A DNA stretch of 64,000 bases, from NCBI RefSeq assembly GCF_003148845.1, contig NZ_QGHA01000001.1:1116001-1180000 (forward strand), in the 5' to 3' direction. Shown here in pieces: positions 15,343-16,088 of this stretch (position 1 is the first letter of the stretch; every line of letters starts with the position of its first letter). This stretch comes from Mucilaginibacter oryzae. Lineage in GTDB: Bacteria; Bacteroidota; Bacteroidia; Sphingobacteriales; Sphingobacteriaceae. Below the pieces are notes generated by a model, which saw only the letters and a program-made list of their open reading frames with translations, was not told the origin of the DNA and did not search any database. The translations under genes were made by a program, and so were the position numbers.

Positions 15343-15432
15343 ACGTAATTATTTATCGCAACCTACGGATCTGAAAAAGGTAAAAGGAGTGATGTGTAAA
15401 CAGCTACCAGGAAACTTATTGTAAAAATTTGA

Positions 15433-15501
15433 TGTCGCGGGCAGATTCGAACTGCCGTATAGGGTAATGCGGACCCCCACCTATCCTCTCGGTCACGCGA
15501 C
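15433..15501 (-). ncRNA. tRNA-like RNA behind a SAM-I riboswitch
   Basis: Read on the minus strand, a tRNA cloverleaf can be folded. GTCGCG pairs with CGCGAC (6 bp). ACC/GGT forms a D stem with a loop holding A14, GG and A. GGGGT/ACCCT forms an anticodon stem. A perfect T arm, GGCAG-TTCGAAT-CTGCC, lies at 15456-15440. The anticodon loop CCGCATT would read GCA (Cys), but position 33 is C instead of the nearly invariant U, and position 37 is U. The acceptor is one pair short and no CCA is encoded. It is probably a tRNA-derived or tRNA-mimic element rather than a translating tRNA. ATTTTT follows its 3' end. Confidence 0.65.
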
Positions 15502-15535
15502 TTGAAAACTGTAAGATCACTTAATCAAATCAGTT

Positions 15536-15558
15536 GTGGGGGCAGATATTAATTATCT
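15536..15558 (-). promoter_or_regulatory. Candidate expression platform of the riboswitch
   Basis: Two alternative pairings start here. AGATA-ATTAA-TATCT (15558-15544) forms a hairpin that uses the 3' strand of riboswitch stem P1. GCCCCCAC (15543-15536) is complementary (seven Watson-Crick pairs plus one G-U) to GTGGGGGT in the anticodon arm of the tRNA-like RNA (15480-15473). SAM binding could thus decide whether the tRNA-like fold forms. The pairings are visible; the switch itself is inferred. Confidence 0.45.
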
Positions 15559-15662
15559 CTCTCCCGTTTTGCACAGGAGCAGGAATTAGCACCTTATGCA
15601 TTTTGCTGATGCACAGGTTGCTAAGACGTCTATGGGCCTTTCCCTCAGTCTTTCTTGATAAG
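15552..15662 (-). promoter_or_regulatory. SAM-I (S-box) riboswitch
   Basis: The minus strand shows the SAM-I core in order: CTTATCAAGAAAGACTGAGG, then GGCCC, TTAGCAACC and GGTGCTAATTCCTGC. Stems can be paired by hand: P1 TTATC/GATAA, P2 AAGAC/GTCTT with a kink-turn, P3 TGCAT/ATGCA and P4 CTCCTG/CGGGAG. It should bind S-adenosylmethionine. No methionine, SAM or transport gene lies behind it on the minus strand; the next element is the tRNA-like RNA, then the 3' end of the oppositely oriented BLUF gene. Confidence 0.93.
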
Positions 15663-15705
15663 TCAATACAAAGAACGCTTTGTCGTTATTGACAATGCAA
15701 ATATA
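15662..15705 (-). promoter_or_regulatory. Promoter and 5' hairpin of the riboswitch transcript
   Basis: TATATTTG (15705-15698) is an exact TAnnTTTG -7 element on the minus strand; no good -33 element is seen. Transcription would begin near 15691, just inside a stem in which GTCAATA pairs with TATTGAC and CAAAG with CTTTG (15693-15662). That stem abuts riboswitch stem P1 and may protect the 5' end. Confidence 0.5.
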
Positions 15706-16088
15706 TACACAAATTATATAATTCCTATAGTTTTTGTAGTTTTTATTCAATGAAATTTGTTTTTTATTGATTTTGAGGGAGATAAAGTTAATTTTTCCAG
15801 ACTTTATTGACTTAATATTTTCACGGAACCTGCCTGACGGGAAGCTCGAAATCCCCCCTGCTTCTTTTCACACTTAAAAATCGCCAACTATTCAAACTGA
15901 AAATTCTTTGCGCCTCCGCGGCTTCACGTGCTTAAAATCTTAAACTATTCAACCTGGAAAATTTTGTGTGCTTATTCTGCTCGGCACTTTGAAAAAACTG
16001 AAACTGTCACCATTTAATCTGAAGTAGTCACCATAAATTTCAACACCAACTATCGCAACTTTGTGTTGTTAAAAAAACACATATCATC
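15706..16088. other. Gene-free stretch with a 58-bp tandem repeat
   Basis: No coding frame is convincing here. Two imperfect tandem copies of about 58 bp, each starting CTTAAAA and sharing AACTATTCAA and a CTG-AAAATT block, lie at 15873-15930 and from 15931. Closer to the SDR gene GTCACCAT occurs twice 21 bp apart (about 16005 and 16026), a possible regulator site. CAACTTTG (16056-16063) resembles a -7 element for that gene. Confidence 0.4.

Follow-up and report, generated by a model that had tools for sequence, protein, structure and literature searches.

A SAM-I riboswitch in tandem with a non-canonical tRNA-Cys gene in Mucilaginibacter and its proposed control of tRNA folding

Introduction

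Riboswitches are described as controlling mRNAs and, rarely, small regulatory RNAs. In Listeria, several non-coding RNAs are under riboswitch control, namely Rli55 and AspocR (B12) and SreA (SAM), the last of which acts in trans (PMC8079631). The tandem described here resembles these systems in that the product of the riboswitch is an RNA. It differs in that regulated termination yields the small or antisense RNAs of Listeria, whereas the product here is a tRNA and the control apparently acts on folding. The T-box (RF00230) also links a riboswitch with a tRNA, but there the tRNA is the ligand and here it is the product.

Genes for tRNA-Cys are known to share an operon with SepRS or SepCysS as well as with sulfur genes (PMC5424206, PMC8762117), an arrangement similar to the Mucilaginibacter loci in that tRNA-Cys is encoded with genes of cysteine or sulfur metabolism. 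Those operons are mostly archaeal and serve indirect charging, whereas the Mucilaginibacter genome studied here has a single ordinary CysRS domain match; a word search of both papers found no mention of riboswitches. We found no precedent for a riboswitch controlling a tRNA in the literature searched, with subscription papers mostly outside the scope of the search.

The aptamer itself is a SAM-I (S box, RF00162) element, complete and above the gathering score; the unit is expected to turn on at low SAM. What it controls is a tRNA gene, not the usual protein gene, and its proposed expression platform is an antisense linker to that tRNA, lacking both an intrinsic terminator and a ribosome-binding site.

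The locus in Mucilaginibacter oryzae

Using computational methods only, we analyzed a stretch of 64,000 nucleotides from M. oryzae (the window), in which an initial annotation had noted a SAM-I aptamer and a tRNA-like fold on the minus strand. The aptamer was recovered as a full-length RF00162 match containing P1 to P4 (15664-15550, minus strand; 78.9 bits against a gathering score of 44.4; E 6.8e-17; model positions 1-108 of 108; E 1.5e-18 in a search of the whole genome). ARAGORN called a tRNA-Cys(GCA) at 15502-15431 on the same strand, the sole tRNA in the window, and the gap between the two elements is 47 nt, not the 51 nt given earlier. The promoter claimed for the unit could be placed at 15705-15698, where TATATTTG agrees with TAnnTTTG, the consensus of the Bacteroidota -7 element, at a position conserved in relatives and likely serves as the transcript promoter. 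A 5' hairpin had been reported as well; the UCGUUCUUUA stretch is conserved, but the hairpin is not found in every lineage. No methionine or SAM gene follows the tandem, as previously noted, and the gene 3' of the tRNA is convergent, with none co-directional there. Compared with the usual SAM-I targets in methionine, cysteine or SAM metabolism, a tRNA-Cys is sulfur-related in a wider sense only.

The window tRNA has a cloverleaf, the GCA anticodon and U73 (at 15432), and thus meets these expectations for a tRNA-Cys. It lacks the 7-bp acceptor with a paired 1:72 that canonical copies have, showing a 6-bp acceptor with an A1:A72 mismatch, and its anticodon loop is CCGCAUU, with C33 in place of the U33 that most relatives keep. 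The short acceptor, C33, U37, perfect T arm and normal D loop had all been described correctly. The gene scored below 29 bits, under the Rfam tRNA (RF00005) cut-off, compared with 37-61 bits for other variants and 59-62 bits for canonical copies, and alone it folds just moderately better than shuffled sequences (z -1.4). Because of this score and z value, the call is weak on the single sequence; that the tRNA is real was settled by its conservation in relatives.

Conservation of the tandem and its tRNAs

Across Mucilaginibacter we identified 37 distinct direct SAM-I/tRNA tandems, all with the same order and spacing. Because these tandems are related, counts made on them are not independent. 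When 100 relatives were searched with the tandem as query, about 11 genomes of the genus gave full-length matches; in many others, a tRNA match lay some way downstream of a SAM-I match. Common to the 37 tandems are the aptamer, elements resembling a promoter, a linker rich in C and an (A)TAAGTGATT..T-run motif just 5' of the tRNA. In most of them the next gene 3' of the tRNA is convergent, leaving the tRNA as the only evident product; a hidden target gene was rejected for this reason. The initial annotation had held that a tRNA-like part not conserved beside the riboswitch would be a chance remnant. The tandem is kept in many relatives, and the tRNA stems are kept through compensatory changes.

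The linked tRNAs belong to two classes. Of 85 distinct class 1 sequences, 84 have a mismatch of A1 with G72 or A72. The T stem and the acceptor pairs from 2:71 to 7:66, in contrast, are held in this class with two-sided changes. Most class 1 sequences came from a search pattern that fixes A1; copies found without this constraint agree. In class 2 tRNAs, an A is bulged out of the 3' strand of the acceptor (31/31), and the neighboring pairs covary. U73 is present in all 116 variants of both classes, GCA occurs throughout, and the anticodon loop is CUGCAAA in 110. Conserved stems, GCA and U73, with CUGCAAA in most copies and an anomaly in the acceptor, indicate structured RNAs under selection with an altered acceptor end. 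The window copy had been read as a defective translator and a mimic; its C33 recurs in its close relatives and a few others, but most relatives have the normal CUGCAAA loop. The general oddity of the SAM-I-linked tRNAs is the acceptor stem and not the anticodon loop.

Three layouts recur in the genus. The tRNA follows the SAM-I element directly, or a gene lies between them, either for a 211-aa 1-Cys peroxiredoxin or for a NifS-like cysteine desulfurase. SAM-I operons that end in an extra tRNA-Cys form a broader pattern in the genus, and the direct tandem is one version of it. At L311 (291-615, minus strand), a degraded SAM-I and a relict NifS-like start, both read by eye, precede a class 2 tRNA-Cys, and this one case suggests that direct tandems can arise through loss of an intervening gene. 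Two consecutive class 1 tRNA-Cys genes lie behind a single SAM-I peroxiredoxin operon in L039 (1521-1713, minus strand). The extra tRNA-Cys pairs in L291 (6456-7115) and L305 (249-863) are divergent from the SAM-I site and not behind it.

For an association test, tRNA-Cys genes of the genus were listed with a pattern that ignores the acceptor stem and the neighborhood, and we sampled 40 regions at non-canonical copies and 20 at canonical copies, each extended some 7 kb upstream unless the contig ended earlier. A same-strand upstream SAM-I (Rfam) was found in 21 of the non-canonical regions and in none of the canonical ones (Fisher p 2e-5). The test is approximate, given the relatedness of the sequences and the overlap of two of the 40 regions.

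A pattern scan retrieved class 1 tRNAs also from a few Pedobacter, Sediminibacterium and Chitinophagaceae records. In 60 SAM-I loci of other genera and families, no tRNA-Cys lay within up to 8 kb downstream; as far as tested, the link is therefore particular to Mucilaginibacter. Four loci in Desertivirga and Pedobacter (L144, L207, L210 and L226) have a class 1 tRNA-Cys with no SAM-I in view; the gene directly 5' of the tRNA encodes an O-acetylhomoserine sulfhydrylase-like protein or a PF03601 membrane protein.

The M. oryzae genome has four SAM-I sites above the cut-off and three tRNA-Cys genes: a canonical copy whose 7-bp acceptor is perfect, the copy in the window, and a third about 5.7 kb behind another SAM-I. 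This second unit (G000:C4:159281-165186) consists of SAM-I, a redoxin gene (by Pfam), SusC-like and SusD-like genes (by eye) and a class 2 tRNA-Cys with a bulged acceptor A. Two of the three tRNA-Cys genes of the genome therefore lie behind a SAM-I. Sister SAM-I sites precede metH-like and O-acetylhomoserine sulfhydrylase-like genes (by eye). The genome has one CysRS domain match (PF01406), which ruled out a second, dedicated CysRS, and no match to RF00230, which ruled out a T-box link.

Linker complementarity and folding

Linkers vary by lineage, and each is complementary to the D-arm and the 5' side of the anticodon arm of its own tRNA. Measured against dinucleotide shuffles, the mean z for the linker with the 5' half of the tRNA was negative in 5/5 tRNA-sequence groups (about -1.0 to -2.7), the window's group being at the weak end (about -1.0). 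No complementarity to the 3' half was found (z near zero or positive). We used shuffles as the control because linker swaps between tRNA groups were unclean, as G+C dominates the energies. In the window, the anti-tRNA segment GCCCCCAC (15536-15543, minus strand), assigned from the predicted fold and from duplex energies of the 37 tandems compared with shuffled linkers, is complementary to GUGGGGGU of the tRNA (15480-15473).

The P1 5' strand CUUAUC (15657-15662, minus strand), located by the Rfam alignment, the tandem alignment and folding, has two possible partners. One is the P1 3' strand GAUAA (15557-15553) and the other is a distal copy (15516-15526, minus strand), in which GAUUAAGUGAU imitates the P1 3' strand and is followed by a T-rich stretch, as in the conserved motif 5' of the tRNA. 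A distal TAAGT-type copy able to take the P1 5' strand is present in 37/37 linkers, and a hairpin test detected no intrinsic terminator before the T run in any of them.

As an in silico stand-in for bound SAM, we forced the P1 helix. Mean pairing of the tRNA acceptor was then 0.02, compared with 0.46 with shuffled linkers, and was lower in 21/21 tandems. In L120, an independent direct tandem whose tRNA is of class 2, acceptor pairing was 0.98 in the free state and 0.00 with P1 forced; taken alone, its shuffled linkers were not clearly different, since 0.375 of them reached the native value. For the window tandem the values were 0.15 free and 0.06 forced, and its whole-stretch fold, which is more stable than shuffles (z -2.5), already has the linker paired with the tRNA. 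The free thermodynamic ensemble leaves the tRNA largely trapped in several tandems, this one included, and its ON state would therefore need co-transcriptional folding. Closed P1 and a folded tRNA thus exclude each other in these thermodynamic models of related sequences, which do not show behavior in the cell.

Proposed mechanism and alternative explanations

We propose, with a probability of roughly 0.75, that the locus is one small transcription unit for a sulfur-starvation isoacceptor of tRNA-Cys under SAM control, misfolded when SAM is present and released when SAM is low. The unit would run from the promoter through the SAM-I aptamer and the antisense linker to the tRNA-Cys paralogue. 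With SAM bound, P1 would be closed and the linker free to pair with the D-arm and the 5' side of the anticodon arm while that side is being transcribed; this would keep the cloverleaf from closing and hence the RNA from maturing. At low SAM, the predicted partner of the P1 5' strand is the distal GAUAAGU copy, the P1 3' strand may in some lineages also pair with the linker, and the released tRNA would fold and then be processed. That SAM is bound, and that the switch runs this way in the cell, are inferences made without expression or binding data. Variant tRNAs with GCA and U73 are expected to be chargeable according to the identity elements of CysRS, and on this basis we propose that the cell's single CysRS charges the released tRNA; charging, too, is inferred. 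The tRNA would be made alongside the SAM-I-controlled peroxiredoxin, cysteine desulfurase and redoxin genes of sister operons.

The claim that a SAM-I riboswitch targets a tRNA-like RNA, made in the initial annotation, is supported by the conserved tandem, its compensated stems, the usual lack of a same-strand gene directly behind it and the coupling through the antisense linker. A tRNA pseudogene decaying beside a SAM-I whose gene was lost could account for C33, U37 and the low Rfam score of the window copy, and L311, read by eye, suggests that an intervening gene can be lost. We nevertheless consider such a remnant very improbable, as the tandem is genus-wide with intact stems, the acceptor anomaly is itself conserved, non-canonical copies are enriched behind SAM-I, and the linker is fitted to the tRNA. 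The absence of a protein product would also suit a trans-acting small RNA such as SreA (PMC8079631), with the tRNA-like part merely a stable 3' end or processing signal. We consider this explanation improbable, because a mere 3' cap would not need GCA and U73 in every copy and the same tRNA follows genes in other SAM-I operons.

The tRNAs might instead be simple members of sulfur operons, there for reasons of gene order or transcript processing, with an ordinary riboswitch platform and no antisense folding. An antisense platform is indeed impossible wherever a protein gene precedes the tRNA, as it does at many loci, and some class 1 copies are preceded by genes but by no SAM-I. We regard this as unlikely for the direct tandems, which have neither an intervening gene nor, in 37/37 linkers, an intrinsic terminator, and whose linkers are complementary specifically to the 5' half of the tRNA. 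A different possibility, which we retain as a tentative alternative, accepts the proposed control but assigns the tRNA a role outside translation, whether as a decoy charged with Cys, as a store of cysteine or as a donor that supplies cysteine to a non-ribosomal enzyme. Initiator tRNAs, which avoid elongation, have a 1:72 mismatch, and a conserved mismatch of this kind or a bulged acceptor would fit such a role, as would the loss of U33 in the window's clade with GCA and U73 kept. The CUGCAAA loop retained in 110/116 variants speaks against it, and no partner enzyme was identified.

Under the proposed SAM-controlled unit, the most likely use of the tRNA lies in sustaining the decoding of Cys codons as the supply of canonical Cys-tRNA drops, although we hold this at slightly less than even odds and function in translation is inferred. 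A CysRS decoy or starvation signal is a weaker candidate, and a cysteine donor outside the ribosome is doubtful; both fit the window's C33 copy better than Cys decoding does. The broader reading, that a ligand-bound riboswitch misfolds a tRNA, that this arose on at least two occasions (class 1 and class 2 tRNA-Cys), and that it supplies a non-canonical, possibly non-translational tRNA-Cys in sulfur limitation, seems to us as probable as its negation.

If the proposal is true, a metabolite sensor wires sulfur status directly to the tRNA pool, and ligand-dependent misfolding of a tRNA is a new type of expression platform. The reason why bacteria keep odd extra tRNA isoacceptors would also become testable in a genus that is cultured and non-pathogenic. 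Confirmation of the folding mechanism would make a case for more than a variant of known riboswitch control.

Upstream of the -7 element, the alignment of the 37 tandems revealed a conserved, partly palindromic element of the CTATAGGAATTATATAA/CTATAGGAATTATA type (15714-15730, minus strand), for which a promoter or operator function is inferred. In the absence of binding data, we infer only that an Rrf2-family regulator could bind it. A gene for a regulator of this family adjoins a sister SAM-I locus (L119, 918-1361).
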